Shown: in pieces, positions 17,128 to 38,529 of the stretch
How the letters are laid out: each line of letters opens with the position of its first letter
Numbering within the stretch: the first letter of the stretch is position 1
From: Methylomagnum ishizawai
GTDB lineage: Bacteria > Pseudomonadota > Gammaproteobacteria > Methylococcales > Methylococcaceae
Assembly: GCF_900155475.1 (NCBI RefSeq)
Contig: NZ_FXAM01000001.1
Location: 2,529,501-2,593,500 of the forward strand
DNA: 64,000 nt
Reading direction: 5' to 3'
Program-made: the position numbers and the translations under genes
The notes under the pieces: model-generated
Databases searched by the model: none
What the model was told of the DNA's origin: nothing
What the model saw: only the letters and a program-made list of their open reading frames with translations

Positions 17128-18081
17128 TCAGGCCGCGGCTTCCGGCGCGTCCCGCATCCGGTCCAGCGCCACCGCCACGGCGGCGGCGCGGGTCGCCACT
17201 CCCAGCTTCTCGAAGATATGCTCCAGGTGCTTGTTGATGGTGCGCGGGCTGCTGCCGAGGATTTGGCCCACGTCCTTGTTGGTCTTGCCACGGGCGATCC
17301 ACATCAGGATTTCGGCTTCCCGCGGGGTCAGGCCCAGGGCGCTTTTCAAGGAATCCAGGTTCCAGTCGCCGGAGGATTCCTGCAACAGCAACAGATATTC
17401 CTGCCCGTCCTGGCAGGGGACCAGCCGCGCCGTGAAGCGTTTGCCGTCGCGCTGGGCGGTGAAGGTGCCCTGGTGGGGGTCGGTGTCCTCCACCGCGATG
17501 CGTTGGCGCGACCATTCGGCCAGGGGTGGGGGCAGGTTGGCGGGCGGGGTGCCGCCGCTGCTGCGGCCCGAAAGCTCCTGGAGCCAGCGGCAACCCGCCG
17601 GGGTCAGCCAGGTGATGCCGCCCGCGCCGTCGATGGCGAGCGCCGCGAAACCGCTGCGTACCAGGGCGTCCTCGGAACGGCGGATCAGCCGGGCCTGGGC
17701 CATGTGGCTCCCGACCCGCGCCAGCACTTCCTGATGGCGGATCGGCTTCACCAGATAATCCACCGCGCCTTCCTCGAAGGCCCGCAGCAAATCGTCCAAT
17801 TCGCTCAGGGCGGTCATGAAGATGACCGGGATCAGGCTGGTGCCGGGATCGGCCTTGAGGCGGCGGCAGGTCTCGAAGCCGTCCAGGCCGGGCATGACCG
17901 CGTCCAGCAGGATGGCGTCGGGCTGGGCGTAGCGCAGTTGTTCCAGGGCCGAAGCGCCGTCGGTGGCGACCAGGACGCGGTAGCCGGCCTCTTCCAGGGC
18001 GTCGGACAGGAAGGCCAGGTTGCCGGGCGCGTCGTCCACGATCATGACGGTGCCCAGGGCTTGGGGTCGGGAAGGGTTCAT
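17128..18081 (-). CDS. LuxR-type response regulator paired with the permease-kinase
   Basis: 317 residues. The receiver domain (about 10-125) has Asp16-Asp17, phosphoacceptor Asp60 (AILLDAVMPG) and the VDYLVKPI lysine. A PAS-like middle region follows (FAALAIDGAGGITWLTPAG to about 230). The C-terminal LuxR/GerE helix-turn-helix (248-300) reads LTPREAEILMWIARGKTNKD and RTINKHLEHIFEKLGV. Its start overlaps the stop of the upstream kinase gene (ATGA), so the two form one unit: kinase first, regulator second. Targets are unknown; nearby candidates are puuE, the urt operon and urease. Confidence 0.85.
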   Translation of the reverse strand: MNPSRPQALGTVMIVDDAPGNLAFLSDALEEAGYRVLVATDGASALEQLRYAQPDAILLDAVMPGLDGFETCRRLKADPGTSLIPVIFMTALSELDDLLRAFEEGAVDYLVKPIRHQEVLARVGSHMAQARLIRRSEDALVRSGFAALAIDGAGGITWLTPAGCRWLQELSGRSSGGTPPANLPPPLAEWSRQRIAVEDTDPHQGTFTAQRDGKRFTARLVPCQDGQEYLLLLQESSGDWNLDSLKSALGLTPREAEILMWIARGKTNKDVGQILGSSPRTINKHLEHIFEKLGVATRAAAVAVALDRMRDAPEAAA

Positions 18082-21000
18082 GGGGGGGTCTCCGGGTGGC
18101 TGCCGAGGAAAGCCTTGATATCGGCGATCCTGAATTCTTTGGCCAGGCCTTGCAGGTGGCGGGCGTAGGGCAGGTATTTGAAATCCTCGTCGATCAAATC
18201 CTTGAGGCGGTCGGTCAGGCCGCGCATATCGCCGATGCGGGCGCAGAATTCCAGTTCCTCCAATACGTCCGGCGGCGGCGGGGCCAGGGTTTGCTCCGCC
18301 GCCGTCCGGCCCGCCGCCGCGCCGTCCTTGCGGTAAATCCAATCCAATCCCAGGTGCAGTTTGACCTTGCGCAAAAGCTCGGCGATCTGGATCGGCTTGG
18401 CGACGAAATCGTCGCAACCGGCCCCGAAGGACTGCCTGCGGTCGGAGGGATAGGCGTTGGCGCTGACCACGATGATGGGACTGCGGCAACCCTGCGCCCG
18501 CAGGCGTTCGGCGGCCTCGATGCCGCCGGTGTCCGCCATCACCAAGTCCATCAGGATCAAATCGGGCCGCCGCCGGGCGACCTGGGCGAGGCAGTCCGTC
18601 CCGGAACCGGCCTCGTCCAGGTCGAAGCCCAGGGGGTCGAGGATGGAGCGCAGCAAGCCCCGGTGTTCGGGCTGGTCGTCCACGACCAGGATGCGTTTGC
18701 GCGGGCCGTGATAGCCCGCGATATCGTCCTCGGCGGCAATCTCCTCGAAGTTTTTGAGATCGGGCAGGAACAGGCGCACCGAAAAGGTCGAGCCTCGGCC
18801 CGGTTCGCTTTCCACCGACAGTTCCCCGCCCATGATTTCCGCCAGGATTTTGCTGATGGTGAGGCCGAGGCCGCTGCCGGAAGCGGCGTTGCCCCGCGTC
18901 CCCGCGAGGCGCTGGAACGGCTGGAAGATTTCTTCGAGCTGGTCGGCGGGGATGCCGATGCCGGTATCGACGATCTGGAAGCGGGCGATTTCGCCGCCGT
19001 AGCCGACCCGGAACAGCACCTCGCCGCCCTGGGTGAATTTCACCGCGTTGCCCAGCAGGTTGATGAGGATTTGCCCGACCCGTTTCTCGTCGCCCCGGAT
19101 GCGGCGCGGCAGGGTATCGACAATCTGGCAGCGGAAGGCCAAGCCCTTGGCCTCGGCCTGGGGCCGGAACATCCGCGCCAATTGTTCGATCAGGGCCGGG
19201 AGGTCGATGGGGGCGCGTTTGAGTTCCAGCTTGCGGGCCTCGATGCGGGCGATGTCGAGGATATCCTCGATCAGGGCGGAAAGATGTTCGCCGCTGCGCT
19301 GGACGATCTCCACGGCATCGCGGCGGTGGGCCGGGATGGCCGGGTCCTTGCCGAGGATTTGGGCATAGCCCAGGATGCTGTTGAGCGGGGTGCGGATTTC
19401 ATGGCTCATATCGCTGAGGAAGCGGCTTTTGGCTTGGTTGGCGCGTTCGGCGGCGTCCCTGGCTTGTTTCAGCTTGATATCGGTTTTGCGGTGTTCCTCG
19501 ATTTCCTGCATCAGGCGCTGGGTCTGGCGGGCCGATTCTTCCTGGGCGACCTGGCGGCTCTCGCTGTTCAGGACCAACCACCAAGCACCCAGCCCCAGGA
19601 ATACCAGCAAGGCCGCGTAGACCTTGACGAAGCTATCGACCAGGGCGTGAGCCAGGGCCGGATTGCCGACCCGCGCCGCCAGCACGTCCTGGTAGAAGAT
19701 CACGCCCACGAACAAGCCGCCCAAGGTCGCCAGCAAGGAAAACACCATGGCGAAGCGGAGCAGGCGCAAACGGATGGCGATGGGCCAGCCGGTGGGCAGC
19801 CAGCGGGCGAGGCTTTCCAATTGGTCCTTGAGGCGGACGCCGGGTTTGCAGGCGTCCAGGCAGCGGGCGTCCAGGGTGCAGCACAGCGAGCAGATGGTGC
19901 CCTGGTAGGCCGGGCAATAGGCCTTGTCCTCGATCTCGAAATCGTTGCCGCAGATGCAGCACTGGGCGTGGGGCGTGGCTTGGCCCCAGTCGTCGCGGTC
20001 GCGGGCCAGATAGAACCGGCCCCGGCTGAGGAAGGCGATCAAGGGGGCCAGGGCGAACGCCAATCCCAAGGCCAGGAAGGCCGAGAACGCCTTCGGTCCC
20101 GCCCCGAACAGGCCGAGATAGGCCAGGATCGACACCAGCGAGGCGCACAGGGTCGAGACCACGCCCACCGGATTCAGGTCCGGCAGATAGGCCCGCTTGA
20201 ACTCGACATGGGCGGGACTCAGGCCCAAGGGCTTGTTCACCACCAAATCCGCCACCAGGGCGCCGATCCAGGCGATGGCGATATTGGAGAACAGGCCCAG
20301 CACCCGTTCCAAGGCCCCGAACACGCCCAGTTCCATCAGCAGCAAGGCGATGGCGACATTGAACACCAGCCACACCACCCGCCCCGGATGGCTATGGGTC
20401 AGCCGGGAAAAGAAATTCGACCAGGCCAGGGAACCGGCATAGGCGTTGGTGACATTGATCTTGACCTGGGATACCACCACCAGCAGGGTGGTCGCCGCCA
20501 GCGCCAGCGCCGGGTTGTCGAACACATGGCCATAGGCGGTCAGATACATCTGGGTCGGCTCGTGGGCATGGACCGGGTCGATGCCATGGCGGATGGCGAG
20601 GTGGGCCAGCAAGGCACCGCCCAATTGCCGCGCCACGCCCAGCAAAATCCAGCCGGGACCGGCCAGGATGGTTGCCGCCCACCAGCGCCAGCGGTTGGCG
20701 GTGGTCTTTTCCGGCAGGAACCGCAGGAAATCCACTTGCTCCCCGATCTGGGCCACCATCGAGAAGGCCATGGTGCAGGCCGCGCCGAACAGCAGCCCGT
20801 CGAAACCGCCGTCCACCGGACCCCGGCCCGTGAACAGCGGCAGGGTCCGCAGCGCTTCCGGCTCGCGCAGCAACACCCCGACATAGGGCGCGACCAGGAG
20901 GGCCAGCCACAGCGGTTGGGTCCACAATTGCAGCCGGTTGATCATGGTGATGCCGAAAGTCACCAAGGGGATCACCACCACCGCGCTCACCACATGGGCC

Positions 21001-21455
21001 AGGGCCAGCGGCATCCCGAAATACAACTCCAGCGCCAGCGACATGATCGAGGCTTCCAGCGCGAACAGGATGAAGGTGAACGAGGCGTAGATCAGCGAGG
21101 TGAGGGTGGAGCCGATATAGCCGAAGCCCGCGCCACGGGTCAAAAGGTCCATGTCGATGTTGTGGCGGGCGGCGTAATAGCTGATGGGGAACCCTGTTAG
21201 GAACACGATCAGCCCGACCGTGAGGATGGCGAGGCAGGCGTTGGTGAAGCCGTAGTTGACCGCCATCAGCCCGCCCATGGCCTCCAGCACCAGGAAGGAA
21301 ATCGAACCGAAGGCGGTGTTGGCAACCCGGAATTCCGACCATTTGCGGAAGCTGCGCGGGGCGAACCGCAGCGCATAATCTTCCAGGGTTTCGTTGGCGA
21401 CCCAGGAATTGTAATCGCGCCGGACCTTGGCGATGGTTTGCCGGTTGACGGCCAT
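18078..21455 (-). CDS. NCS1 permease-like receptor hybrid histidine kinase
   Basis: 1125 residues. Residues about 1-485 form a 12-helix NCS1 (nucleobase-cation-symport, cytosine/purine/allantoin permease) domain, recognisable by FGSISFLVLEAMGG and ISYYAARHNIDMDLLTRGAG. A cysteine cluster follows (Cys499, 500, 502, 514, 522, 525, 526, 532, 536), likely a metal-binding knuckle. Two more membrane helices (about 566-588, 607-628) lead through a coiled coil (633-675) to the HisKA box (His685 in SDMSHEIRTP), the ATPase domain (N box NLLGNAVKF, DTGIGIP, SGLGLTISK), and a receiver at 920-1035 with Asp970 and Lys1020. A 60-residue helical tail closes the protein. It appears to couple a transporter-like sensor to phosphorelay. 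The neighbours suggest a ureide, purine or urea ligand; this is inference. Confidence 0.85.
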   Translation of the reverse strand: MAVNRQTIAKVRRDYNSWVANETLEDYALRFAPRSFRKWSEFRVANTAFGSISFLVLEAMGGLMAVNYGFTNACLAILTVGLIVFLTGFPISYYAARHNIDMDLLTRGAGFGYIGSTLTSLIYASFTFILFALEASIMSLALELYFGMPLALAHVVSAVVVIPLVTFGITMINRLQLWTQPLWLALLVAPYVGVLLREPEALRTLPLFTGRGPVDGGFDGLLFGAACTMAFSMVAQIGEQVDFLRFLPEKTTANRWRWWAATILAGPGWILLGVARQLGGALLAHLAIRHGIDPVHAHEPTQMYLTAYGHVFDNPALALAATTLLVVVSQVKINVTNAYAGSLAWSNFFSRLTHSHPGRVVWLVFNVAIALLLMELGVFGALERVLGLFSNIAIAWIGALVADLVVNKPLGLSPAHVEFKRAYLPDLNPVGVVSTLCASLVSILAYLGLFGAGPKAFSAFLALGLAFALAPLIAFLSRGRFYLARDRDDWGQATPHAQCCICGNDFEIEDKAYCPAYQGTICSLCCTLDARCLDACKPGVRLKDQLESLARWLPTGWPIAIRLRLLRFAMVFSLLATLGGLFVGVIFYQDVLAARVGNPALAHALVDSFVKVYAALLVFLGLGAWWLVLNSESRQVAQEESARQTQRLMQEIEEHRKTDIKLKQARDAAERANQAKSRFLSDMSHEIRTPLNSILGYAQILGKDPAIPAHRRDAVEIVQRSGEHLSALIEDILDIARIEARKLELKRAPIDLPALIEQLARMFRPQAEAKGLAFRCQIVDTLPRRIRGDEKRVGQILINLLGNAVKFTQGGEVLFRVGYGGEIARFQIVDTGIGIPADQLEEIFQPFQRLAGTRGNAASGSGLGLTISKILAEIMGGELSVESEPGRGSTFSVRLFLPDLKNFEEIAAEDDIAGYHGPRKRILVVDDQPEHRGLLRSILDPLGFDLDEAGSGTDCLAQVARRRPDLILMDLVMADTGGIEAAERLRAQGCRSPIIVVSANAYPSDRRQSFGAGCDDFVAKPIQIAELLRKVKLHLGLDWIYRKDGAAAGRTAAEQTLAPPPPDVLEELEFCARIGDMRGLTDRLKDLIDEDFKYLPYARHLQGLAKEFRIADIKAFLGSHPETPP

Positions 21456-21760: not shown

Positions 21761-22681
21761 ATGAACCTACCCGATTTGCCCACAGTCCCCCGCGATTTCA
21801 TCGGCTATGGCCGCAATCCGCCCGATCCGGCCTGGCCCGGCGCAGCCAGGGTCGCGCTCAATTTCGTGCTGAACTACGAGGAAGGCGGCGAAAGCACCCC
21901 GCTCGACGGCGACCCGGTATCGGAGGGCTATCTGCATGAAATCATCGGTGCGCCGCCTAGTGTCGGCGTCCGTAACCTGAACGTGGAATCGATGTACGAA
22001 TACGGCAGCCGCGCCGGTTTCTGGCGGATGCACCGCTTGTTCACCGGGCGGGGTTTACCATTGACCGTGTACGCGGTGGGACTGGCCTTGGAGCGGAATC
22101 CGGCCGCCGCCGTCGCCATGGCTGGGGCCGGTTGGGAAGTCGCCAGCCACGGCTGGCGCTGGATCGATTACCAGGGCATGGACGAGGCCGAGGAGCGCGA
22201 GCATATCCTGTGCTGCATCGACACCATCGCCGGTTTGACCGGCCAGCGCCCGGTGGGGTGGTACACGGGGCGGATCAGCGCCAATACCCGGCGCTTGGTG
22301 GTGGAGGAGGGCGGTTTCTTGTACGACTCGGATTCCTACGCCGACGAATTGCCCTATTGGCAGACGGTGGCGGGCCAGCCGCATCTGGTGATTCCCTACA
22401 CTTTGGATTGCAACGATTTCAAATACCTACTGCCGAACGGCTTTACCACCGGGGATGATTTCTACCGCTATCTGGTGGACGCTTTCGAGCAGCATTGGGA
22501 AGAGGGCGCGGCCCGTCCGACCTTGATGTCGGTGGGCCTGCATTGCCGGATTTCCGGGCGTCCGGGGCGGGCGCGGGCCTTGGCGCGGTTCCTCGACCAT
22601 GTGAAGGACCGGGAAGGCGTGTGGATCGCCACCCGCGAGCAGATCGCCCGCCATTGGCACCAACACCATAAGCCCGCGTAG
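21761..22681 (+). CDS. puuE: PuuE-type allantoinase (polysaccharide-deacetylase fold)
   Basis: 306 residues. The N-terminus DFIGYGRNPPDPAWPG and ALNFVLNYEEGGES, then NVESMYEYGSRAGFWRM, EVASHGWRWIDYQGM and GWYTGRIS, are signatures of the metal-independent PuuE allantoinase branch of the NodB-like deacetylase superfamily. The family hydrolyses allantoin to allantoate. No other ureide-degrading gene (uricase, allantoate amidohydrolase, ureidoglycolate lyase) is in the window, so a related cyclic amide is a possible substrate. It ends 2 bases before the convergent urtE stop and lies beside the urea transporter, consistent with a shared nitrogen-scavenging role. Confidence 0.85.
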   Translation: MNLPDLPTVPRDFIGYGRNPPDPAWPGAARVALNFVLNYEEGGESTPLDGDPVSEGYLHEIIGAPPSVGVRNLNVESMYEYGSRAGFWRMHRLFTGRGLPLTVYAVGLALERNPAAAVAMAGAGWEVASHGWRWIDYQGMDEAEEREHILCCIDTIAGLTGQRPVGWYTGRISANTRRLVVEEGGFLYDSDSYADELPYWQTVAGQPHLVIPYTLDCNDFKYLLPNGFTTGDDFYRYLVDAFEQHWEEGAARPTLMSVGLHCRISGRPGRARALARFLDHVKDREGVWIATREQIARHWHQHHKPA

Positions 22682-22683
22682 GC

Positions 22684-23466
22684 TCACACCGTCAGATAGC
22701 GCTTCACCATGTCCTCGGTGAGTTCGCCCATGGCCCCGGTGGCGACGGCGCGGCCCCGGTCCATGATGCAGAAGCGGTCGGCCACCTTGCGGGCGAACGG
22801 CAGTTTTTGCTCCACCAGCAGCACCGTCACGCCCAAGTCCCGTTTCACCTTGACGATGGCGTCGTTGATCTCGTCCACCACGTCGGGGGCGGTTTTTTCG
22901 ATTGGGGTTGGGATGCCCCGCGCCCGGTTCAACCGGATGATGACATCGCCGATTTCGCTGACGATGTTGGGTTGGATGCCTTCGGTCGGCTCGTCGAGGA
23001 TCAATAATTTCGGGTCCAACACCAGCGCCCGGCCTATCGCCAATTGCTGTTGCTGGCCGCCGGAAAGATCGCCGCCGCGCCGTTTCAACATCTTCTTCAG
23101 CACCGGGAAAATCTCGAACACCTGTTCGGGCACGTCCTTGATGCCCTTGCGGCGGACGGCGCGGAGCCCGGTCCTGAGGTTTTCCTCCACCGTCATCAGC
23201 GGGAAGATTTCCCGGCCCTGCGGCACGTAGCCGATGCCGAGTTCGGCCCGCTGCTCGGCCTTGAGGCCCAGCAGGTTGCCGCCATCGAACATGATGCCGC
23301 CGGAACGGGCCGGGATCAGGCCCATCACGGTCTTGAGCAGGGTGGTCTTGCCCACGCCGTTGCGGCCCATCAGGCACAGGCACGCGCCTTTCGGCACCTC
23401 CAGCCCCAAATCCCACAAGGTATGGCTCTCGCCGTAAAACTGGTTCAAACCGGCAACGTTTAACAT
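22684..23466 (-). CDS. urtE: Urea ABC transporter ATP-binding protein UrtE
   Basis: 260 residues, longer than the roughly 230 usual for UrtE. Walker A GRNGVGKT is at 34-41, the signature LSGGQ at 134-138, Walker B LLILDE at 154-159, and DEPTEGIQPNIV follows as in UrtE. Extra sequence lies at about 183-212, between the D-loop and the LLVEQ strand; its core (195-213, DVVDEINDAIVKVKRDLGV) resembles the preceding 167-185 (NIVSEIGDVIIRLNRARGI), suggesting an internal duplication. UrtE and UrtD together power urea import. The ATG overlaps the urtD stop by one base. Last gene of the porin-urtABCDE operon. Confidence 0.92.
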   Translation of the reverse strand: MLNVAGLNQFYGESHTLWDLGLEVPKGACLCLMGRNGVGKTTLLKTVMGLIPARSGGIMFDGGNLLGLKAEQRAELGIGYVPQGREIFPLMTVEENLRTGLRAVRRKGIKDVPEQVFEIFPVLKKMLKRRGGDLSGGQQQQLAIGRALVLDPKLLILDEPTEGIQPNIVSEIGDVIIRLNRARGIPTPIEKTAPDVVDEINDAIVKVKRDLGVTVLLVEQKLPFARKVADRFCIMDRGRAVATGAMGELTEDMVKRYLTV

Positions 23467-24287
23467 CAGCCCCCCAAATACACCTGGATGACCCGTGGGT
23501 CGTTCTGTACTTCGTCCATGCTGCCTTCGGTCAACACCGTGCCCTCGTGCAATACCGTGACCCGCTTGGCGATGGAGCGCACGAATTCCATATCGTGTTC
23601 CACCACCACCACCGAATGCTTGCCTTGCAGCGATAACAGCAATTCGGCGGTGCGCTCGGTTTCCTGGTGGGTCATGCCGGCCACGGGCTCGTCCACCAGC
23701 AGCACCTTGGGCTCTTGCATGAGCAACATGCCGATTTCCAGCCATTGCTTCTGGCCGTGCGACAGTGCCCCGGCCCGGAAATCGCGTTGATCGGCGAGGC
23801 CGATGGTTTGCAGCACTTCGCCGATTCGGTCCGTTTGCTCGCCCCGCAGTTGGGCGAACAGGGTCGGCCAGACCCGCTTGTCGGTGCGCATGGCCAGTTC
23901 CAGGTTTTCGAATACGCTGAGCTTGTCGAACACGCTGGGCTTTTGGAACTTGCGGCAGACCCCGGCCTGGGCGATGGCGGGTTCGTCCAATTTGAGGAGG
24001 TCGATGGTCTGGCCGAAAAACACCGTGCCGATATCGGGCCGGGTCTTGCCGGTGATGACATCCATCATGGTGGTTTTGCCCGCGCCGTTGGGACCGATGA
24101 TGCAGCGCAATTCGCCCTCGTCGATGTAGAGCGAGAGTTTATTCAGCGCTTTGAAGCCGTCGAAGCTGACGCTCACATCTTCCAGATAGAGGATGGGGCG
24201 GTGGCTGGTGTCGAGTTGACCGCCCGGCATGGGGCGGCCGGCTTGGGGACCGAGGCTGGAGCCTTCGAGTGGGGTGCCGGAAATCAT
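23466..24287 (-). CDS. urtD: Urea ABC transporter ATP-binding protein UrtD
   Basis: 273 residues. A Gly/Pro-rich N-terminal tail of about 30 residues precedes ILYLEDVSVSFDGFKALN. Walker [10 protein letters not shown] near 70, a branched-chain-amino-acid-type loop (ITGKTRPDIGTVFFG), signature LSHGQKQWLEIGMLL (LSHGQ instead of LSGGQ, usual for UrtD) and Walker B VLLVDEPVAGMT. It belongs to the LivG-like half of the ATPase pair. It overlaps urtC by four bases (ATGA). Confidence 0.95.
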   Translation of the reverse strand: MISGTPLEGSSLGPQAGRPMPGGQLDTSHRPILYLEDVSVSFDGFKALNKLSLYIDEGELRCIIGPNGAGKTTMMDVITGKTRPDIGTVFFGQTIDLLKLDEPAIAQAGVCRKFQKPSVFDKLSVFENLELAMRTDKRVWPTLFAQLRGEQTDRIGEVLQTIGLADQRDFRAGALSHGQKQWLEIGMLLMQEPKVLLVDEPVAGMTHQETERTAELLLSLQGKHSVVVVEHDMEFVRSIAKRVTVLHEGTVLTEGSMDEVQNDPRVIQVYLGG

Positions 24288-25372
24288 GCGGCTTCCTCCT
24301 TGCGGCGTTGCCAGAGGCCGACGAGGCCGTCCGGCAGGAACAGCGTCACCAGCACGAAAATAGCGCCCAGCGCGAACAGCCAGACCTCGGGCAGGATCGC
24401 CGTGAACACGGTTTTGCCGTAGTTGACCAGGATGGCCCCGACGATGGCCCCGTACAGGGTCGAACGCCCGCCGACCGCCACCCAGACCACGATTTCCAGC
24501 GAGGCCAGGGGCGAGAATTCGCTGGGGTTGATGATGCCGACCTGGGGCACGTACAGCGCCCCCGCGATACCGGCCAGGATGGCCGAGAACACGAAAATCC
24601 ACAGCTTGAACATCTCCACCTTGTAGCCGAGGAAACGCACCCTGGCTTCCTGGTCGCGGATGGCGGTCACGACCCGGCCCAACTTGGAATCCACCACGTA
24701 GCGGCAGGCCAGATAAGCCAGGATCACGCTGGACCCCGTGGCTGCGAACAGGGCGGCGCGGGTGCCGCCCGCTTGCAGGTTGAAGCCTAGGATGTCCTTG
24801 AAGTCGGTCAGGCCGTTGTTGCCGCCGAAGCCCATTTCGTTACGGAAGAAGGCCAGCAACAGGGCGTAGGTCAAGGCTTGGGTGATGATGGAGAGGTAGA
24901 CGCCGGTCACGCGGGAACGGAACGCCAGCCAGCCGAACACGAAGGCCAACACGCCCGGTGCCAGCACGATCATCAGCAGGGCGAACCAGAATTGGTCGAA
25001 GCCTTGCCAATACCAGGGCAGTTCCGGCCAGTTGAGGAACACCATGAAATCGGGCAGGACCGGATTGCCATAAACGCCCCGGTCGCCGATCTGGCGCATC
25101 AAATACATGCCCATGGCATAGCCCCCGAGCGCGAAGAAAGCGCCATGGCCCAGGCTCAGGATGCCGCAATAGCCCCACACCAGGTCCATCGCCAACGCCA
25201 ACAAAGCGTAGGTCAGGTATTTGCCCAGCAGCGATACCGTGTAGGTGGAGAAATGCAGGGGCGAGCTTTCCGGCAGCAGCAGGTTGAACAGCGGCACGAA
25301 CACCGTGATGAGGGCGACCGCCCCCAGCACGATCTGGCCGAATTTGTCGTTTTGGAGTAGCGGGAAAGTCAT
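24284..25372 (-). CDS. urtC: Urea ABC transporter permease UrtC
   Basis: 362 residues with about ten membrane helices, LivM-like. Distinctive UrtC blocks are LGKYLTYALLALAMDLVWGYCGILSLGHGAFFALGGY and FGGNNGLTDFKDILGF (quoted as family landmarks, each within its own helix or loop) and the EAR-loop region SRVTGVYLSIITQALTYALL. It forms the translocation pore with UrtB. ATG at 25372 is preferred; a TTG two codons upstream overlaps the urtB stop. Confidence 0.95.
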   Translation of the reverse strand: MTFPLLQNDKFGQIVLGAVALITVFVPLFNLLLPESSPLHFSTYTVSLLGKYLTYALLALAMDLVWGYCGILSLGHGAFFALGGYAMGMYLMRQIGDRGVYGNPVLPDFMVFLNWPELPWYWQGFDQFWFALLMIVLAPGVLAFVFGWLAFRSRVTGVYLSIITQALTYALLLAFFRNEMGFGGNNGLTDFKDILGFNLQAGGTRAALFAATGSSVILAYLACRYVVDSKLGRVVTAIRDQEARVRFLGYKVEMFKLWIFVFSAILAGIAGALYVPQVGIINPSEFSPLASLEIVVWVAVGGRSTLYGAIVGAILVNYGKTVFTAILPEVWLFALGAIFVLVTLFLPDGLVGLWQRRKEEAA

Positions 25373-25374
25373 GC

Positions 25375-27018
25375 TCAAGCCTCCGCCGCCCGGCCTTTCT
25401 GCGGGAACAAGCCGCGCGGGCGTTTTTGGATGAAGATGATGATGAACACCAGCACCAGGATTTTCGCCAGCACCGCCCCGGCATAGGGTTCGAGGAATTT
25501 ATTGGCGACCCCTAGCGAAAACCCGGCGACCAGGGTGCCCCACAGGTTTCCCACGCCGCCGAACACCACCACCATGAACGAATCGACGATATAGGATTGC
25601 CCGAGGTTCGGCCCCACGTTGGTCAACTGGCTGAGCGCGACCCCGGCCACCCCGGCGATACCGGAACCCAGCCCGAAAGTCATCGCGTCCACCCGTTCGG
25701 TGGGGATGCCCATGGCTTTGGCCATCGCCCGGTTCTGGGCTACGGCGCGGACTTCGAGGCCGAGGCGGGTGCGCTTGAGGATTTGCAGCAGCATCACGAA
25801 CACGATCACGCAGAACAACAGGATGTAGAAGCGGTTCAAGGTCAGCGAGAGGGCGTCGTTGATCTGCCAAGAGCCGCTCATCCAGGCGGGCGTCGCCACG
25901 CTGCGGTTCAGGGGCGAGAAGATCGAGCGCACCGCTTGCTGTAGGAACAGGCTCACGCCGAAGGTCGCCAGCAAGGTTTCCAGGGGACGGCCATACAGGA
26001 AGCGGATGATGCCGCGTTCGATGGCGATGCCGACCAAGGCGGAAATCAGGAACGCCGCCGGGATCGCCACGAACAGCGAGAGTTCCAGATGGTTGGGCAT
26101 GAGTTGCTGCACCACATAGGTGGTATACGCCCCGATCATCATCAGTTCGCCATGGGCCATGTTGATGATGCCCATGACGCCGAAGGTGATGGCGAGGCCG
26201 ATGGCGGCGAGGACCAGGACCGCCCCCAGGCTCAGGCCGAAGAACACGGTTTCGATGCTAGCGTACAGTTGCAGCCGCCCCTTGATGTCGGTCAGCGCGG
26301 CCTCGGCGGTATGGCGTATATCGGAATCGGGTTCGAGGTATTCGCCCGCTTCGTTCTTTTCCAACAGGGCGTTGAGATGGTTCACCACGTCCGCGCCGAC
26401 TTCGGTGCGTAGCGTGGCGATGGCTTTCAGCCGGTTGGCCTTGTCGGGGCTGTTCAAATCGGCCAGGGCCAGGGCCAGGCGGATCGCGGCGAGGACTTTG
26501 GGGTCTTGTTCCTGCCCCAACCGGGCCAGGAGCAGGGCGAGGGTTGCGGGGTCCGGGGCTTGGCTCATGGCCTCCACGGCTTTGAGCCGCACGTCGGCCT
26601 CGGGGGCGTTGAGTTCCAAACGTCCGATGAGTTGGCGCAGGGTGGAGCGCAGAGCGTTGTTCAGATTGATTTTTTTCACATCGAAGCGGCCCGCCGTGCC
26701 GAGTTGCTCGCCGGTCGCGGCATCGGCGAGGGCGTAGCCGTCGTCGGCGCTGTCGCCCGTCACGATGCGATTATCGGCCTTTTGGTAGAACAAACGGCCA
26801 TCGAGCAGGGCTTGCAGGAGTTTCGGCACCCGTGCGTCCGGGACGGTGGCGAATTGCTGGATGCTGGCTTCCAGTTGGTCCAGCGGGGCCGCTTTGATCT
26901 GGGCCAGGCCGTCGGCGACCGGATCGCCCGCCTGGGCCGTTCCGATCCGGCACAAGGCCAGGACCAAGAGGAGCCAAAGGGCGGGCAAGGGGCTGGATTG
27001 GAATTTCATGTCGGACAT
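25375..27018 (-). CDS. urtB: Urea ABC transporter permease UrtB with periplasmic N-domain
   Basis: 547 residues. A signal-like helix (residues 10-30) is followed by about 230 soluble residues made of helical repeats (VRLKAVEAMSQAPDPATLALLLARL), then a LivH-like permease from about 255 to the end (FGVMGIINMAHGELMMIGAY, RPLETLLATFGVSLFLQQ). The long N-domain is normal for UrtB. AGGA lies 6 bases before the ATG. It is separated from urtA by 166 bases containing two hairpins, unlike the tight junctions downstream. Confidence 0.95.
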   Translation of the reverse strand: MSDMKFQSSPLPALWLLLVLALCRIGTAQAGDPVADGLAQIKAAPLDQLEASIQQFATVPDARVPKLLQALLDGRLFYQKADNRIVTGDSADDGYALADAATGEQLGTAGRFDVKKINLNNALRSTLRQLIGRLELNAPEADVRLKAVEAMSQAPDPATLALLLARLGQEQDPKVLAAIRLALALADLNSPDKANRLKAIATLRTEVGADVVNHLNALLEKNEAGEYLEPDSDIRHTAEAALTDIKGRLQLYASIETVFFGLSLGAVLVLAAIGLAITFGVMGIINMAHGELMMIGAYTTYVVQQLMPNHLELSLFVAIPAAFLISALVGIAIERGIIRFLYGRPLETLLATFGVSLFLQQAVRSIFSPLNRSVATPAWMSGSWQINDALSLTLNRFYILLFCVIVFVMLLQILKRTRLGLEVRAVAQNRAMAKAMGIPTERVDAMTFGLGSGIAGVAGVALSQLTNVGPNLGQSYIVDSFMVVVFGGVGNLWGTLVAGFSLGVANKFLEPYAGAVLAKILVLVFIIIFIQKRPRGLFPQKGRAAEA

Positions 27019-27184: not shown

Positions 27185-28483
27185 TCAATATTTCTGGCCG
27201 GAGCATTTCTTGGTCTTGGTGTTGTAGTTGCCACAATTGATGGGCGCGGTCCAGTCGGCCACGATGGGCTTGGATTCCGGCAGGAAGTCGGACCAGGCGT
27301 CGCCATCGACCAAGCCCTTGGTCTGCCACACCACGGAGAACTGGCCGTCGTCCTGGATTTCGCCGATCAACACCGGCTTGGAGATGTGGTGGTTGGGCAG
27401 CATCTTGGAGGTGCCGCCGGTCAGGTTGGGTTGCTCCACGCCGATGATGGCCTTGGCGACCGCGTCGGTGTCGGTGGTCTTGGCCTTCTCCACCGCCTTC
27501 ACCCACATGTTGAAGCCGATGTAATGGGCTTCCATCGGGTCGTTGGTGACGCGCTTGGGGTTCTTGATGAAGCTGTGCCAGTTCTTGATGAACTCGGCGT
27601 TGGCCGGGGTATCGACCGACATGAAGTAGTTCCAGGCGGCGAGATGGCCGACCAGGGGCTTGGTGTCGATGCCGGACAGTTCTTCCTCGCCGACCGAGAA
27701 CGCCACCACCGGAATCTGTTCGGCGGAAATGCCCTGGTTGCCGAGTTCCTTGTAGAACGGCACGTTGGCGTCGCCGTTGATGGTGGAGACCACGGCGGTC
27801 TTCTTGCCCGCCGAGCCGAACTTCTTGATATCCGACACGATGCTCTGCCAATCGGAATGGCCGAACGGCGTGTAGTTGATCATGATGTCGGCGGGCTTGA
27901 CGCCCTTGGCCTTCAGATAGGCTTCCAGGATTTTATTGGTGGTGCGCGGATAGACGTAGTCGGTACCGGCCAGTACCCAGCGCTTCACCTTCAAATCCTT
28001 CATCAGATAATCCACCGCCGGGATGGCTTGCTGGTTCGGGGCCGCGCCGGTGTAGAACACGTTCTTGGAGGATTCCTCGCCCTCGTATTGCACCGGGTAG
28101 AACAACAGGCCGTTGAGTTCTTCCACCACCGGCAGCGCCGATTTGCGGGACACCGAAGTCCAGCAGCCGAAGATCGCCGCCACCTTGTCCTTGCTGATGA
28201 GTTCGCGGGTCTTTTCGGCGAACAAGGGCCAGTTGGAGGCGGGATCGACCACCACCGGCTCCAATTTCTTGCCGAGGAGGCCGCCTTTCTTGTTCTGCTC
28301 GTCGATGAGCATGAGCATGGTGTCCTTCAGCGTGGTTTCGCTGATGGCCATGGTGCCGGACAGGGAATGCAGGATGCCGACCTTGATGGTGTCCTCGGCA
28401 TGGACACTGAACGCGACCAGGGTCGAACCGGCCACGGCCAGCGATTGGAACCAGCGGCGCAGGGGGTATTGATGTTCGGACAT
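27185..28483 (-). CDS. urtA: Urea ABC transporter substrate-binding protein UrtA
   Basis: 432 residues. Signal peptide about 1-29 (ending FSVHA-EDT). The mature protein begins IKVGILHSLSGTMAIS, and FGCWTSVSRKSALPVVEE, LLFYPVQYEGEESSKNVFYTGAA and NYTPFGHSDWQ are UrtA landmarks of the type I periplasmic-binding fold. It captures urea in the periplasm. GAGGAG lies upstream of the ATG. First urt gene after the porin; gap 77 bases. Confidence 0.96.
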   Translation of the reverse strand: MSEHQYPLRRWFQSLAVAGSTLVAFSVHAEDTIKVGILHSLSGTMAISETTLKDTMLMLIDEQNKKGGLLGKKLEPVVVDPASNWPLFAEKTRELISKDKVAAIFGCWTSVSRKSALPVVEELNGLLFYPVQYEGEESSKNVFYTGAAPNQQAIPAVDYLMKDLKVKRWVLAGTDYVYPRTTNKILEAYLKAKGVKPADIMINYTPFGHSDWQSIVSDIKKFGSAGKKTAVVSTINGDANVPFYKELGNQGISAEQIPVVAFSVGEEELSGIDTKPLVGHLAAWNYFMSVDTPANAEFIKNWHSFIKNPKRVTNDPMEAHYIGFNMWVKAVEKAKTTDTDAVAKAIIGVEQPNLTGGTSKMLPNHHISKPVLIGEIQDDGQFSVVWQTKGLVDGDAWSDFLPESKPIVADWTAPINCGNYNTKTKKCSGQKY

Positions 28484-28560: not shown

Positions 28561-29793
28561 CTAGATTTGCAATTGGAAGCCCAACAGCAAGGAGCTGACG
28601 TGGCTGCCGCTGGCGGTCGAGGTGTAGTTCAAACCCTTGGTGAACATGTCGCTGTAGTTGTAAACCAGAGAAATCTTGGCGTTGTGGCCGTCGATGACGT
28701 AGTTGAGACCGGCTTCCCAGTTGTTGCGGTCGCTGCTGTTGAAGGGCATGGCTTCCACATAGCGCAGGTACGGCTGGAACTGGCCGATCCAGACCTTGTC
28801 CGGGACCAGGTACATGGCGCTGATATCGTAGGCGTTGCCCTCGAACAGGTCGAAGCCGGGGGTCTGGGATTGGCGCTGGGCCATGCCGTAGCCGCCGCTG
28901 ATGCCGTAGTTCTTGTATTCGCCGTTGAAGGTGAGGACGCCGGAGTCGCCGCCGTTGAGGTTCTGTTCATACAGCACGTCCACCGTGGTGCCGCGGAAGT
29001 TGCCGGGATCGGTGGCGGTGCCCGCGCCGTCCTCCTGGTACTGGTTGGAAACGCCGAGGGTGAGGATATCGCCGCCCTTGCCGTAATAGGTGCCCGAGGT
29101 GTAGTAGCCGGGGTTCTTCTCGACATCGAGGAAGTTGTAGGCGAAGCGCTGGGCGTAGAGGATATTGTCGTTCTGGTTCGCGCCGTTGCGTAGGCCCCGG
29201 AAGAAACCGACGGCGTATTGGAAGCGGTTCTCGTAGACCGCGCCCCAGATCGTGGCGCCGTCGTCGCGGCCATAGGAACCGGCGGAATTGCCGTTGGATT
29301 GGATGGTGACGTTATAGTCCGAGGGCTCGAACGGTGTGCCGGTGCGGAACATGTCGTACACGGCGCTGAAGAACGGACCGTTCATCTCGCGGCGTTCGGC
29401 GGGGACCAGCATCCGGCCCATCCACAGGTTGATCATCGGGTCGTATTCGATCTTGCCGATGGCGTCCAGCACCCGGATCTCGCCACCGTTGTTGCAGGTT
29501 TGGCAATCGGTGTTGAATTCGAGCTTGAGGTACTTGAATATCTGGCCGTTGATGTAGAGACGGATGTTGTCGAGGTTGAAATCGTTCGACCATTGGGTGC
29601 CGTTCGCCGCGCCTTTCTCGGTGGCGCTGAAGCTGGTGCGTAATCCCGCCCCGATGCTGATCCATTTGGTGTCGTCGATCTTGAAGGTCGCCCCGGCCTC
29701 CGCGTGGGGCGCGTAGCCCGCCGAGAACGCGAGCGTGATGGCGGCGGGCAACAGCGCCAAGCGCCGGCCGCCCAGGGTTTGGGTGTTATGCAT
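28561..29793 (-). CDS. Outer-membrane porin upstream of urtA (FmdC-like)
   Basis: 410 residues, signal peptide about 1-32 (ending HAEAG), then alternating beta-strand pattern with aromatic strand ends and a C-terminal LLLGFQLQI typical of outer-membrane beta barrels. An extended loop carries a Cys pair (DCQTCNNGG). It resembles porins that accompany amide and urea transport loci (FmdC). Being first in the urt operon, it likely forms the outer-membrane entry for urea or short amides; this is context-based. Lacks a recognisable start-site promoter; an operator-like repeat array lies about 70-100 bases upstream. Confidence 0.75.
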   Translation of the reverse strand: MHNTQTLGGRRLALLPAAITLAFSAGYAPHAEAGATFKIDDTKWISIGAGLRTSFSATEKGAANGTQWSNDFNLDNIRLYINGQIFKYLKLEFNTDCQTCNNGGEIRVLDAIGKIEYDPMINLWMGRMLVPAERREMNGPFFSAVYDMFRTGTPFEPSDYNVTIQSNGNSAGSYGRDDGATIWGAVYENRFQYAVGFFRGLRNGANQNDNILYAQRFAYNFLDVEKNPGYYTSGTYYGKGGDILTLGVSNQYQEDGAGTATDPGNFRGTTVDVLYEQNLNGGDSGVLTFNGEYKNYGISGGYGMAQRQSQTPGFDLFEGNAYDISAMYLVPDKVWIGQFQPYLRYVEAMPFNSSDRNNWEAGLNYVIDGHNAKISLVYNYSDMFTKGLNYTSTASGSHVSSLLLGFQLQI

Positions 29794-29815: not shown

Positions 29816-29895
29816 CTTAAATGACGGAGCCCATTAAAATTTCCGCGCCCTATCTCAACAATCAGTCATCTGACTCATCAGTCAAATGACGTATG
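29816..29895. promoter_or_regulatory. Array of AGTCA/TGACT repeats between porin-urt and urease units
   Basis: AGTCA (29864), TGACT (29871), and AGTCA (29880) alternate as overlapping inverted repeats with 2- and 4-base gaps. In addition TTAAATGACGGA (29817) and TCAAATGACGTA (29883) are near-identical direct repeats. The cluster lies in the 208-base divergent region, placed to control both the porin-urt operon and the lipoprotein-ureDABC unit. Binding factor unknown. Confidence 0.45.
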
Positions 29896-30001: not shown

Positions 30002-30982
30002 ATGAATCCCACTCCCGGAAAGCGCCGCGCACGGTGGCTCCGCCTGTCCATCCTGACCGTCCTCGCCGGTTGCGCGGAACAAGCGCCTTATCGGGGCGTC
30101 CGTCCCGATCCGGCCCAGGTCCACAAGATCGGCCTCAAGATCGATCCCACGCTTGCCGGGAGCCGCGCCGACGGCGCCAAGCTCAAGGACATGGCCGCCC
30201 GCGCCGCCCGGAACCTGGGCGGCTGGGGTTATGCGGTGGCGGCGGGGAGCGGGGACTTCAGCCATATCCTCGAAGCCAAGATCGATCCGGTGGCGCATAA
30301 AAGCACGCCGCCCGGCTTTTCCATGAGCATGGGCAATTCCGATCCCCGTGCGCTGGAATTCCAGAAAGCCTATGTGCTGCCGGTGGATTGCGTGATCTAT
30401 CCGGTGGCGCGGCCCCAGGACCGCGCCAGCCTGTACATGGATTTCGTCGCCAAGGACACCTCCCTCAGCGATCCCGATTCGGTCAAGACCTATGTGGACC
30501 ATATTTCCACGGTCTGTTTCAACCTGCTGGAAGATTTGAAGATCAAGCGGACCCAGGCCGCGCCCGCCGCCGCCCAGGCCGAAACCCCGGCCAATGCCGA
30601 TACCTGGTTCCCGGAAGTACGGGTCGAGGTCCGTAATAAGACCGTGACGCCGATCGCCGCGCCGGTCGCGGCTCCGTCCGTGCCCAGTGCGCCGCCGCCG
30701 ATGGCTCCGGTTCCGGTGGTTCCGGCGGTGCCCAAGCCGGCGGCAGCGCCCGTTCCCGCCAGGGCGGTGGTTCCATCCGCGCCTGTGGCGGTGCCCGCGC
30801 CCGCCGCGCCGGTTTCCACGAGTCCACCCGTTCCGCCCACCACGGCACCCGCGCCGTCCCAGCCCCAAGCCCCGGCGGTGACGACCGAAACCGCCACCGA
30901 CCCCGGCAACGGCAAGAAGGAAATGATCATCCACAACCAGGGCAGCCCGATCATCTTGGAATTCGGCTACGAGCGGAAATGA
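30002..30982 (+). CDS. Proline/alanine-rich lipoprotein coupled to ureD
   Basis: 326 residues, no family recognised. Residues 1-24 are a lipoprotein signal ending in the lipobox LAGC (Cys24). Residues about 35-180 form a folded domain with repeated KI-DP elements (IGLKIDPTLAG, HILEAKIDPVAH) and a central FSMSMGNSDPRALEFQKAYV. Residues 205-300 are a Pro/Ala/Val linker of the kind that spans the periplasm, and the last 25 residues end [10 protein letters not shown]. The stop overlaps the ureD start (ATGA), so it is translated with the urease accessory genes. It may be a cell-envelope component tied to urea or nickel handling, but that rests on position alone. Confidence 0.65.
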   Translation: MNPTPGKRRARWLRLSILTVLAGCAEQAPYRGVRPDPAQVHKIGLKIDPTLAGSRADGAKLKDMAARAARNLGGWGYAVAAGSGDFSHILEAKIDPVAHKSTPPGFSMSMGNSDPRALEFQKAYVLPVDCVIYPVARPQDRASLYMDFVAKDTSLSDPDSVKTYVDHISTVCFNLLEDLKIKRTQAAPAAAQAETPANADTWFPEVRVEVRNKTVTPIAAPVAAPSVPSAPPPMAPVPVVPAVPKPAAAPVPARAVVPSAPVAVPAPAAPVSTSPPVPPTTAPAPSQPQAPAVTTETATDPGNGKKEMIIHNQGSPIILEFGYERK

Positions 30983-31818
30983 GCGCCGTTCCCGCGACTG
31001 AGGCGGCGGCCCCGGAAGGTTGGCGGGCCGGATTGGAACTGGGTTTCGCGGCCACGGGGTCCGGCAAGACCCTACTGGCCCGGCGGCGGCACCATGGCCC
31101 GCTCGCGGTGCAGCGGCCTTTCCATCCCGAGGGCGGCGTCTGCCATGTGTATGTGCTGCATCCGCCCGGCGGCGTGGTGGCGGGGGATCGGCTGTCGATC
31201 CGGGTCGAAGCCGATCCGGGCGCGGCGGCCTTGGTCACCACCCCGGCGGCGGGCAAGTTCTACCGCAGCGCCGGACCCTTGGCCCGGCAATCGGTAGCGC
31301 TGACAATAGCGCCGGGCGCGGCCCTGGAATGGCTGCCGCAGGAAACGATTGTTTACCAAGGTGCCCGCGTGGCTTCGACGACACGGGTGGATTTGCGGGA
31401 AGGGGCCCGCTTCCTGGGCTGGGAAGTGCTGGCGCTGGGCCGTCCCGCCGCCGGCGAAGGTTTCGAGGCGGGCGAGGCCGGGTTGGATTGGCGGATCGAC
31501 CTGGAAGGCCAGCCGCTCTATCTGGAACGGCTGGTGCTGGACCCTTGGGCGTTCCGGGCCCACTGGGGTTTGCGTGGGCGTGCGGCTTTGGGCACCTTGT
31601 TCGCTTATCCGGCCACGGCGGCGCAGTTGGACACCGTGCGCGGACTTGTCGGCGACCGGCCCGACCTGGGCGTCAGCCTGATCGAAGGCTTGTTGATCTG
31701 CCGGGGCTTGGATGCCAGGGCCGATGTGCTGCGGCGGTTTTTCGAGCAGGTTTGGGCGGCGCTGCGGCCCGGCGTGATGGGGCGGCCCGCCTGTCCGCCA
31801 CGCATCTGGGCGACTTGA
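30979..31818 (+). CDS. ureD: Urease accessory protein UreD
   Basis: 279 residues. Family landmarks are [30 protein letters not shown] (read in two parts near 35-64), [12 protein letters not shown], and [14 protein letters not shown]. UreD is the scaffold that docks apo-urease and recruits UreFG for nickel delivery. As in many proteobacteria it precedes ureABC. ureA begins 74 bases later with its own strong ribosome-binding site. Confidence 0.93.
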
Positions 31819-31892
31819 TCCATACCGCGCCCGGTCCGGGGCGGTTGCGCCGCGCCGCAGCCGGGCTACGAAAACGCAAACGAGAGGGAAAC

Positions 31893-32195
31893 ATGCAACT
31901 CACACCCCGCGAAAAAGACAAGCTATTGATTTTCACCGCCGCCCTCCTGGCCGAGCGCCGCAAGGCCCGTGGCCTCAAGCTCAACCATCCCGAAGCCGTG
32001 GCCTATCTGTCCGCCGCCATCATGGAGGGTGCCCGCGATGGCCGTTCCGTGGCCGAACTGATGGACTATGGCCGTTTGCTCCTGACCCGCGCCGATGTGA
32101 TGGAGGGCGTGCCGGAACTGATCCCCGATGTCCAGGTCGAGGCCACCTTCCCGGACGGCACCAAGCTGGTGACGGTCCACAACCCCATCGAATAG
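31893..32195 (+). CDS. ureA: Urease gamma subunit
   Basis: 100 residues, the standard length. It opens [17 protein letters not shown] and contains [21 protein letters not shown] and the closing LVTVHNPIE. Structural subunit of the (UreABC)3 urease. GAGAGGG lies 4 bases before the ATG. Confidence 0.97.
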
Positions 32196-32228
32196 CCTTT
32201 TTCCACCCACCCCAACCTTGGTTTTCCC

Positions 32229-32546
32229 ATGATCCCAGGCGAAATCATCCCCGCCGACGGCAGCATCGAATTGAACGCGGGCCGTCCCGTCCGCGTCCTC
32301 ACGGTGGCGAACACCGGCGACCGGCCCATCCAGGTCGGCTCCCACTACCATTTTTCCGAGACCAACCCGGCCCTCCGCTTCGACCGCGCCCAGGCCAGGG
32401 GCCACCGGCTCGACATCCCGGCGGGCACGGCGGTGCGCTTCGAGCCGGGCCAGGAACGCGAGGTGCGGCTGGTGCCGTTCGCGGGCCGGCGGGAAATCTA
32501 CGGTTTCCGCCAGGAAGTCATGGGCGCTTGGGAGGACCAGCCATGA
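32229..32546 (+). CDS. ureB: Urease beta subunit
   Basis: 105 residues. [39 protein letters not shown] and [17 protein letters not shown] are diagnostic. It supports the alpha subunit in the urease trimer. Overlaps ureC by four bases. Confidence 0.97.
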
Positions 32547-34246
32547 GCCGGATATCGCGACACGCCTATGCCGAGATGTTCGGTCCCACCACCGGGGACA
32601 AGGTGCGGCTGGCCGATACCGGCCTGTTCCTGGAGGTCGAGAAGGATTTCACCGTCTACGGCGACGAGGTGAAATTCGGCGGCGGCAAGGTCATCCGCGA
32701 CGGCATGGGCCAGGGCCAGCAGGATTCCGCCACGGCGGTCGATACCGTCATCACCAATGCGCTGATCGTCGATTGGTGGGGCATCGTCAAGGCCGATGTC
32801 GGCATCAAAGGGGGCCGCATCGCCGGGATTGGCAAGGCCGGCAACCCGGATACCCAGGCGGGCGTCGATATCGTCATCGGCCCCGGCACCGAGGTCATCG
32901 CCGGGGAAGGCCAAATCCTCACCGCCGGGGGCATCGATGCCCACATCCATTTCATTTGCCCGCAGCAGGTGGAAGAAGCCCTGATGTCGGGCGTCACCAC
33001 TATGATCGGCGGCGGCACCGGACCCGCCACCGGCACCAACGCCACCACCTGCACCCCCGGTCCGTGGAACATCCACCGCATGCTGCAAGCCGTGGATGGA
33101 TTGCCCATGAATATCGGCCTGCTGGGCAAAGGCAACGCCAGTTTGCCCGCCGCCTTGGTCGAGCAGGTCCAAGCCGGGGCCATCGGTCTCAAGCTGCACG
33201 AGGATTGGGGCACCACGCCCGCCGCCATCGATTGCTGCCTCGCGGTGGCCGACGAATATGACGTGCAGGTCGCCATCCATACCGACACCCTCAACGAATC
33301 CGGTTTCGTCGAGGATACCTTCGCCGCCTTCAAGGGCCGCACCATCCACACCTACCACACCGAAGGCGCGGGTGGCGGCCACGCCCCCGATATCATCAAA
33401 GCCTGCGGCGAATCCAATGTTTTGCCCTCGTCCACCAATCCGACCCGGCCCTATACGGTCAACACCGTGGACGAGCATCTCGACATGCTGATGGTTTGCC
33501 ACCATCTCGACCCGGCCATCCCCGAGGACGTGGCTTTCGCCGAATCGCGCATCCGCCGCGAAACCATCGCGGCGGAGGACATATTGCACGATTTGGGTGC
33601 GTTCTCGATGCTGTCCTCCGATTCGCAGGCCATGGGCCGGGTCGGCGAGGTGGTTATCCGCACTTGGCAGACCGCCCATAAGATGAAGGCCCAGCGCGGC
33701 CCGCTGCCGGAAGATAACCCTGGCAATGACAATTTCCGCATCAAGCGTTACATCGCCAAATACACCATCAACCCGGCCCTCAGCCATGGCATTGCCCACG
33801 AGGTCGGCTCGGTCGAGGTGGGGAAACTGGCCGATTTGGTGCTGTGGTCCCCGGCTTTCTTCGGGGTGAAGCCCAGTGTGATCCTCAAGGGCGGCTTCAT
33901 CGCCGCCGCGCCCATGGGCGATCCCAACGCCTCGATCCCGACCCCGCAGCCGGTGCATTACCGGCCCATGTTCGGGGCGCTGGGCGACGCCTGCCGCGCC
34001 ACTTCCATGACCTTCCTGTCCCAGGCGGCTTTCGAGTCCGGTGTGGCCCAGCGTTTGCAACTCCGAAAACTGATCGGTGTGGTTTCCCATACCCGCGACA
34101 TCGGCAAGAAGGACTTGATACATAACGCCTATCAACCCCGGATCGAGGTCGATGCCCAAACCTATGCGGTGCGGGCCGATGGGGTCTTGCTGACCTGCGA
34201 ACCCGCCGAGGTGTTGCCGATGGCGCAGCGCTATTTCTTGTTCTGA
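32543..34246 (+). CDS. ureC: Urease alpha (catalytic) subunit
   Basis: 567 residues, exactly family length. The dinickel ligands and active-site residues fall at canonical numbers: His134 and His136 (AHIHF), carbamylated Lys217 (GLKLHEDWG), and Cys319-His320-His321 on the flap (MVCHHLD). It hydrolyses urea to ammonia and carbamate. Start at 32543 inside ureB; five more codons upstream are open but do not match the family. After it comes a 139-base gap and then a foreign-looking signalling cassette rather than ureE. Confidence 0.98.
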
Positions 34247-38477: not shown

Positions 38478-38529
38478 GCTGGCCGCAGCGCCGGGCCACG
38501 GTTTTTTCCCTCAACTTTGGAAATGAAAG

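Follow-up and report, generated by a model that had tools for sequence, protein, structure and literature searches.

The window analyzed here, the whole 64,000-nucleotide stretch of the Methylomagnum ishizawai genome on contig NZ_FXAM01000001.1 (positions 2,529,501 to 2,593,500), encodes a 1125-residue hybrid histidine kinase whose front half resembles an NCS1 permease. We think it probable that this protein is a transporter-derived receptor kinase for urea and short-chain amides that activates the genes for urea uptake and urease. Control of urea-uptake and urease genes by the kinase is very probable, and its most likely means is the detection of urea or similar small amides. The argument draws on the domain architecture, a fold match, genomic linkage, and a conserved operator, each of which is read from sequence.

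Genes for the uptake and breakdown of urea and amides are regular neighbors of this kinase. Reference sequences of Urt, Fmd, Ure, PuuE, the regulator, and other proteins were used to search loci in two partly overlapping sets (L028 and L158 exemplify the overlap): 80 public loci, 53 of them with at least 8.5 kb upstream, and 72 whole-genome regions, 63 of them with at least 8.5 kb, from which the stand-alone or distant copies L155, L159, L208, and L209 were excluded. Among the well-flanked loci, urt, fmd, or ure genes were present in 43/53 public and 59/63 whole-genome cases and were divergent from the kinase in 39/53 and 54/63, respectively; 20 random 20-kb stretches from the same genomes, taken as a control, held none of the reference genes. 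The kinase is divergent from ureABC-EFG in L146, L165, L171, L173, L180, and L201 and lies downstream of ureG in L062, L073, L169, L193, and L207, and urease genes are found in the flank of 17/72 regions and 12/80 loci. Deposited annotation agrees, with divergent urtABCDE (named as a HAAT-family amide transporter) and formamidase in Burkholderia vietnamiensis, divergent urtABCDE and formamidase in Methylobacterium currus and Klebsiella pneumoniae, urtABCDE alone in Rhizobium Q54, and formamidase in Methylovirgula. The allantoinase gene puuE, which adjoins the kinase in the window, occurred in the flanks of 0/80 and 0/72 relatives (0/53 and 0/63 of those with at least 8.5 kb upstream). Of the two conditions that the sequence-only reading set for its own refutation, neither occurred: the front half has an NCS1-like fold, and homologues are found near urea genes. 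A neighborhood of urea and formamidase genes points to urea and short-chain amides, rather than allantoin, as the cue. The UrtA matches listed were themselves of two kinds, one 62 to 96% identical to the formamidase-linked query, with many members at kinase loci, and a general kind at ~37 to 47%, which includes both copies of the window genome.

The divergent regions share a putative operator. Motif discovery used regions of up to 700 bp (70, or 59 after redundancy was removed) and recovered the dyad TACG-N8-CGTA in 44 of the 59, while in 20 mononucleotide shuffles no dyad was present in more than 7; its fullest palindromic form is TACGTCANNTGACGTA. When regions of up to 1500 bp were counted (79, from 111 found), the exact core was present in 56/79, compared with 0/20 urtA promoters of kinase-free genomes, 1/14 unlinked urtA copies in kinase-bearing genomes (the second copy of the window genome included), and 2 sites in 400 kb of random stretches. 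Matrix scores of at least 15 were reached by 66/79 regions, 0/20, and 0/14, respectively, with a matrix built from sites of the 79 and controls outside it. A separate test set comprised 35 loci with urt genes (L024 to L091 outside L080 and L085 to L090), nearly all labeled Methylococcales and none used for the matrix; the best match lay upstream of porin/urtA or formamidase in 32 of them (24/27 plus 8/8), at scores from 8.0 to 29.0. Conserved linkage and a shared operator, the marks of a dedicated urea/amide regulator, are thus both found, and the operator supports the earlier proposal that the kinase controls the urea block. The second urtA of the window genome (G000:C1:3093078-3094163) lacks the operator core across ~1 kb of upstream sequence.

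In the window, the best matrix match (17.9; the next scores 5.6) is the stronger of two predicted dyads, located between porin-urtABCDE and lipoprotein-ureD, where its start lies 84 bp upstream of the porin gene and its end 107 bp upstream of the lipoprotein-like gene. The second dyad begins at 29861, and the same tandem form is seen in several relatives. The pattern AGTCANNTGACGTAT, allowing up to one mismatch, occurs in the 5.48-Mb genome only at this tandem site, from which the pattern was written. The gap between the kinase and puuE scores at best -6.4 and contains no operator.

The kinase itself is a single frame with an ATG start that combines HisKA, an ATPase, and a receiver with the phospho-acceptor residues present, which makes it a hybrid kinase. 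The sequence-only reading had described this 1125-residue frame, with nine cysteines at residues 499 to 536, two extra helices, HisKA with His685, ATPase, and receiver, and all of this was confirmed by the frame, Pfam, and a structural model. The coupled regulator that it proposed was also borne out: the regulator start overlaps the kinase stop codon as ATGA, and the product joins a receiver to a GerE helix-turn-helix, as LuxR/NarL-type regulators do. The 25 best NCBIfam matches of the kinase protein were general kinase models, all under their cut-offs. The fusion is not due to chance, as 106 of 115 length-checked relatives extend more than 300 residues beyond the permease part, with eight standing alone and one cut by the end of its stretch. 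A full-length model (predicted template modeling score, pTM, 0.43) links the last membrane helix to the kinase by a single helix at residues 599 to 703, of which residues 651 to 688 have a predicted local distance difference test score (pLDDT) below 50, and it was not used as evidence. Following the receiver is a helical tail (18102-18326, minus strand; approximately residues 1044 to 1118) that has no Pfam match and is seen in the low-confidence full-length model.

For the front half, a domain search gave no PF02133 (NCS1) match in the kinase protein at E ≤ 1, nor one anywhere in the genome of the window, and no match to the SSF (SLC5) domain at E ≤ 1. Structure was more informative. An AlphaFold model of residues 1 to 640, built from 30 sequences (mean pLDDT, 81.1; pTM, 0.81), retrieved CodB and Mhp1 as the top five Foldseek rows among solved structures, and VIA-align gave Z scores of 34.4 for CodB (3.3 Å over 390 residues) and 26.8 to 29.2 for Mhp1, with the remaining listed families at 24.0 or less, including the urea transporter DUR3 at 23.1. 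A phmmer search of the N-terminal half against the PDB found nothing, and a profile from 17 relatives matched CodB in the PDB at 1.2e-8. Two stand-alone relatives, L017 (45% identical; 31.8 bits) and L019 (26%; 30.2 bits), exceed the PF02133 cut-off, and a third, L022 (53%), falls under it. We name the domain NCS1-like and NCS1-derived because of the modeled fold, the CodB profile match, and the stand-alone relatives that pass PF02133. The NCS1-type fold proposed earlier is thereby upheld by the structural comparison, and the PF02133 profile match was the part that failed.

The substrate and ion sites of CodB appear to have been remodeled. In CodB, the side chains of Q105, W108, and F204 are reported to contact cytosine, and T278 and T279 are among the ligands of Na+ (PMC9379551). 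In a distant profile and MAFFT alignment with Escherichia coli CodB, whose letters agree at those numbers, the three cytosine contacts correspond to T127, L130, and M233; the L130 position is Phe in 26 of 35 aligned sequences and the M233 position is Leu in 25 of 35. A by-eye match of Q105 to E134 was dropped, as the profile alignment gives T127. T278 and T279 correspond to I333 and N334 by MAFFT, or to K332 and I333 with one gap shifted, and both hydroxyls are gone in all 35 sequences; the register of transmembrane helix 8 is uncertain by one residue, and our claim is limited to the loss of both Na+ hydroxyl ligands. The phmmer alignment of L019 against the PDB left this helix unaligned. D213 of CodB is retained as D242. 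Replacement of the nucleobase contacts and Na+ hydroxyl ligands in fused and stand-alone relatives alike would fit a small, nonaromatic ligand, and the lost hydroxyls argue against classical Na+ coupling, as far as the alignment can tell. There is a precedent for a ligand without a ring, since another NCS1 protein is reported to take up metformin (PMC13390362).

Matches to the kinase at E ≤ 0.001 were found in 19/369 genomes of the class and in 61/398 of the phylum, of which 52 were strong (E < 1e-100) and nine weak or partial. Public genomes yielded at least 525 confirmed loci; the best 80, mostly Methylococcales, were kept, and these include methanotrophs, Pseudomonas, Stutzerimonas, Herbaspirillum, Caballeronia, Bordetella, and a Leptolyngbyaceae contig. 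Methylotuvimicrobium buryatense 5G has two such kinases (L028). Among plasmid records, 530/72,556 matched, 342 of them from Klebsiella.

Four close stand-alone relatives, 44 to 54% identical, all lie by urease or formamidase genes. One (L155/L017) is downstream of ureDABCEFG and upstream of a NicO nickel transporter gene; another, on an Acinetobacter johnsonii plasmid (L110:5663-7270), is annotated "allantoin permease" but belongs to a urease cluster, upstream of ureEFG-ureDABC, and probably transports urea; the copies in L154/L022 and L105 have both a fused copy and formamidase beside them or nearby. As a group, the four look like urea or amide permeases. The distant stand-alone copies (L111, L159, L208, and L209) have a different context, save for a UrtA-like gene near L208, and none of the reference genes lie near L159 or L209. 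A tree rooted on CodB/AllW placed stand-alone copies outside the fused ones, with a split support of 34 and long branches, and we do not claim the order of events as shown.

Between permease and kinase lies a cluster of exactly nine cysteines (residues 499, 500, 502, 514, 522, 525, 526, 532, and 536), of which all except 500 are invariant across 30 aligned sequences, that of the window included. The urease-linked stand-alone permeases L017 and L110 retain only four of them. At residues 480 to 675, the place where a STAC domain would be expected, no Pfam match exceeded its cut-off, and a sub-threshold DUF2570 match was the only one. The view of the front half as a sensor module is supported by the varied outputs to which relatives attach it: besides hybrid kinases, it joins kinases without a receiver match in L089, L142, L186, and L198, PAS-PAS-HisKA-receiver in L149, and, in the same genome as the latter, PAS-GGDEF-EAL, i.e., a cyclic-di-GMP enzyme (L148:7351-11019).

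The features of the window are collected in Table 1. In relatives such as L025, the gene order is urtA, porin, operator, lipoprotein, kinase, and regulator, and porin-like homologues adjoin the kinase in many relatives. The window differs in that the lipoprotein gene, still at the operator, leads into ureD, and in that puuE and the urt operon separate the kinase from this site by ~8.4 kb. The adjacency of puuE thus looks like a local rearrangement rather than a clue to the ligand. The lipoprotein-like protein has no Pfam or NCBIfam match, and in many methanotroph loci a relative found by tblastn adjoins the kinase; it is a possible periplasmic partner. Between ureC and ureE (34293-37377, plus strand) is a second signaling module, made up of a PilJ-Hpt-HATPase CheA-like protein, a lone receiver, and a CheX phosphatase; the CheA-like protein and CheX had no tblastn relative (1e-10) in the loci compared.

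Table 1. Annotated features of the window, numbered from its first nucleotide
Feature	Position	Strand	Basis or remark
LuxR/GerE response regulator	17128..18081	-	Receiver and GerE helix-turn-helix (Pfam)
NCS1-type hybrid sensor histidine kinase	18078..21455	-	Single 1125-aa frame, ATG start
Receiver (Response_reg), Asp970	18363..18692	-	Pfam, residues 922-1031
HATPase_c	18765..19094	-	Pfam, residues 788-897
HisKA, His685	19236..19433	-	Pfam, residues 675-740
Two extra helices ahead of kinase, residues 559-593 and 599-639	19539..19781	-	AlphaFold model
Nine-cysteine cluster, residues 499-536	19848..19961	-	Predicted cytoplasmic
NCS1-like permease domain, ~residues 24-480	20016..21386	-	AlphaFold model compared with PDB; PF02133 cut-off passed by stand-alone relatives L017 and L019
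puuE allantoinase, neighbor judged outside the system	21761..22681	+	TIGR03212 over cut-off; divergent from kinase
urtE	22684..23466	-	NCBIfam over cut-off; start codon by eye; under the tblastn threshold used
urtD	23472..24194	-	tblastn extent; NCBIfam over cut-off
urtC	24284..25378	-	NCBIfam over cut-off
urtB	25375..27018	-	NCBIfam over cut-off
urtA	27185..28483	-	NCBIfam over cut-off
Porin-like protein heading urt operon	28561..29793	-	NF040900 (porin ExtI) 83 bits, under cut-off of 150
Predicted tandem operator, two dyads	29861..29894	.	Stronger dyad 29877-29894 = ATCAGTCAAATGACGTAT
Lipoprotein-like gene	30002..30982	+	ATGA overlap with ureD; directly before kinase gene in relatives such as L025
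ureD, ureA, ureB, ureC	30979..34243	+	
ureE, ureF, ureG	37427..39141	+	tblastn extents

From these data we infer a ligand, a signal path, binding of the operator by the regulator, and a sign of control, as follows. An NCS1-type permease fold would have been recruited to detect urea and/or short-chain amides (formamide and acetamide), and ligand in the permease pocket would alter the state of the fold. The signal would be relayed via the cytoplasmic cysteine cluster and the two extra helices to the dimerization helices, setting autophosphorylation at His685, and the phosphate would reach the coupled LuxR-type regulator either straight from there or by way of Asp970. The regulator would then bind TACGTCANNTGACGTA-type palindromes and activate porin-urtABCDE and, in the window genome, the divergent lipoprotein-ureDABC...EFG operon as well. 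In Methylophilus methylotrophus, fmdCABDEF is reported to be induced by formamide and urea (PMC10781810), and uptake of formamide has been proposed as the role of urt genes that adjoin formamidase (PMC13209695).

Several observations weigh against this proposal. Ten of the 53 well-flanked public loci have no reference genes; of these, L054, L058, and L079 show porin X, L028 has a tandem copy that lies by urt/fmd (see L158), and L044, L048, L050, L056, L066, and L083 are unexplained. Four of the 63 whole-genome loci (L142, L147, L148, and L149) likewise have none. The exact core is absent from 23/79 regions, including all six divergent from ureA, and the best matches of L062, L065, and L073 are not at urt. 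In the window, the kinase is away from the operator, and no site is present in the gap upstream of it; the predicted operator is imperfect, with two mismatches, its score is equaled in 2/20 shuffled windows, and one match at up to three mismatches compares with 0.51 expected. The window score alone is not unusual for 64 kb, and the argument is carried by position and conservation. The pocket and Na+ readings rest on a distant alignment (~17 to 19% identity), and the distant stand-alone copy L111 (29% identical) is by hydantoinase/oxoprolinase-type genes. Finally, the linkage could come from another cue, such as nitrogen limitation. Since urea-transport and urease genes are reported to drop in an ntrC mutant of Burkholderia cenocepacia H111 (PMC5491218), a general control by nitrogen may operate alongside the kinase or in its place, and fmdCABDEF of Methylophilus is reported to be repressed by ammonia (PMC10781810).

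It was suggested earlier that the kinase senses allantoin, another ureide, or a purine, in keeping with the divergent puuE. The adjacency of that gene in the window, the annotation of the NCS1-type protein AllW as an allantoin transporter, the context of L111, and the name given to the A. johnsonii stand-alone copy would all suit such a cue. We nevertheless rejected it as very improbable, as puuE shows no conserved linkage and no operator, the close stand-alone copies are neighbors of urease or formamidase genes, and the A. johnsonii copy sits within a urease cluster. It is also improbable that the permease fold is a mere anchor and that the cysteine cluster senses a metal (nickel or zinc) or redox state, matching the nickel need of urease. 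The eight invariant cysteines and the NicO gene after one stand-alone copy are what one would cite for this; however, the cluster is kept in relatives with formamidase and urt but no urease in their flanks (e.g., L086 and L103), the urease-linked stand-alone copies L017 and L110 retain only four of its cysteines, and the permease core is strongly conserved.

A closer variant makes formamide or other short-chain amides the cue, with urea a bystander or gratuitous ligand. In the whole-genome set, urt genes are the most frequent companions (55 of 72) and formamidase genes come next (41 of 72), and L186, L198, L105, and L154 have formamidase in the flank without urt genes. We still find this unlikely, given the loci flanked by urease genes and given that the window genome has urt and urease yet no match to the formamidase query (there was no positive control there, and the same protein found formamidase in many loci). 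Somewhat more plausible, as a tentative possibility, is that the protein acts as a transceptor in the full sense, also moving its substrate through the membrane and signaling by transport turnover. The NCS1-like domain is complete, stand-alone homologues by urease genes resemble transporters, and the SLC5-type kinase CbrA is reported to bind and transport histidine (PMC13022988). Against this, none of the 35 aligned sequences keeps either Na+ hydroxyl ligand, a loss that proton-coupled or passive transport would still accommodate, and uptake is already supplied by urtABCDE. Detection of urea or similar small amides by a transporter-derived receptor is the reading that we prefer.

Transporter-fused histidine kinases are already known in the SLC5/STAC group (CbrA, CrbS, and RpuS), which shares with this system an N-terminal LeuT-fold transporter domain joined to a histidine kinase, a paired response regulator, and nutrient sensing. 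The present system differs in that the permease is NCS1-like, closer to CodB than to the SLC5-type DUR3, a cysteine cluster and two helices appear to stand in the place of STAC, and the regulator is LuxR-type. With the NCS1 transporters (CodB, Mhp1, AllW, and MetT for metformin) it shares the fold and the conserved Asp, whereas it is fused to a kinase, has the cytosine-contact residues and Na+ hydroxyl ligands replaced, and fails PF02133. No paper on NCS1-kinase fusions was found in the open-access literature. At L106, on S. meliloti pSymB, divergent urt genes lie at the kinase locus. The S. meliloti genes exsG/exsF may be this kinase/regulator pair; the pSymB record carries no annotation. The two genes have been named as RpoE2 targets (PMC6180224).

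The fmdCABDEF genes of M. methylotrophus and urtABCDE/urease operons resemble those described here in their porin, ABC uptake, and amidase/urease sets, which in our loci are accompanied by a kinase system; they correspond to the target genes, and the accessible text names a putative positive regulator and no two-component system (PMC10781810). In Ectopseudomonas guguanensis G3, a hybrid kinase and a LuxR regulator are annotated beside a second urtABCDE, and the available text is silent on a permease domain, a ligand, or an operator (PMC13296017); this is probably the same locus type. The urt-formamidase clusters of Klebsiella and Pseudomonas are likewise described, in the text available, without mention of this kinase (PMC13060141 and PMC13209695).

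Taken together, these results suggest a candidate receptor, regulator, and operator for urea/amide genes, and a second transporter type turned kinase receptor. They also suggest a regulator for a urt-amiF cluster on Klebsiella plasmids, an order shown by the one plasmid record examined. In a broader form, to which we give an even chance, the NCS1-like domain, cysteine cluster, and helix pair would constitute an undescribed, portable urea/small-amide sensor module that came from a stand-alone urea/amide permease family and was wired to several outputs, and that, with the LuxR regulator and the TACGTCANNTGACGTA operator, may form a main circuit by which many Pseudomonadota induce the use of urea and formamide.

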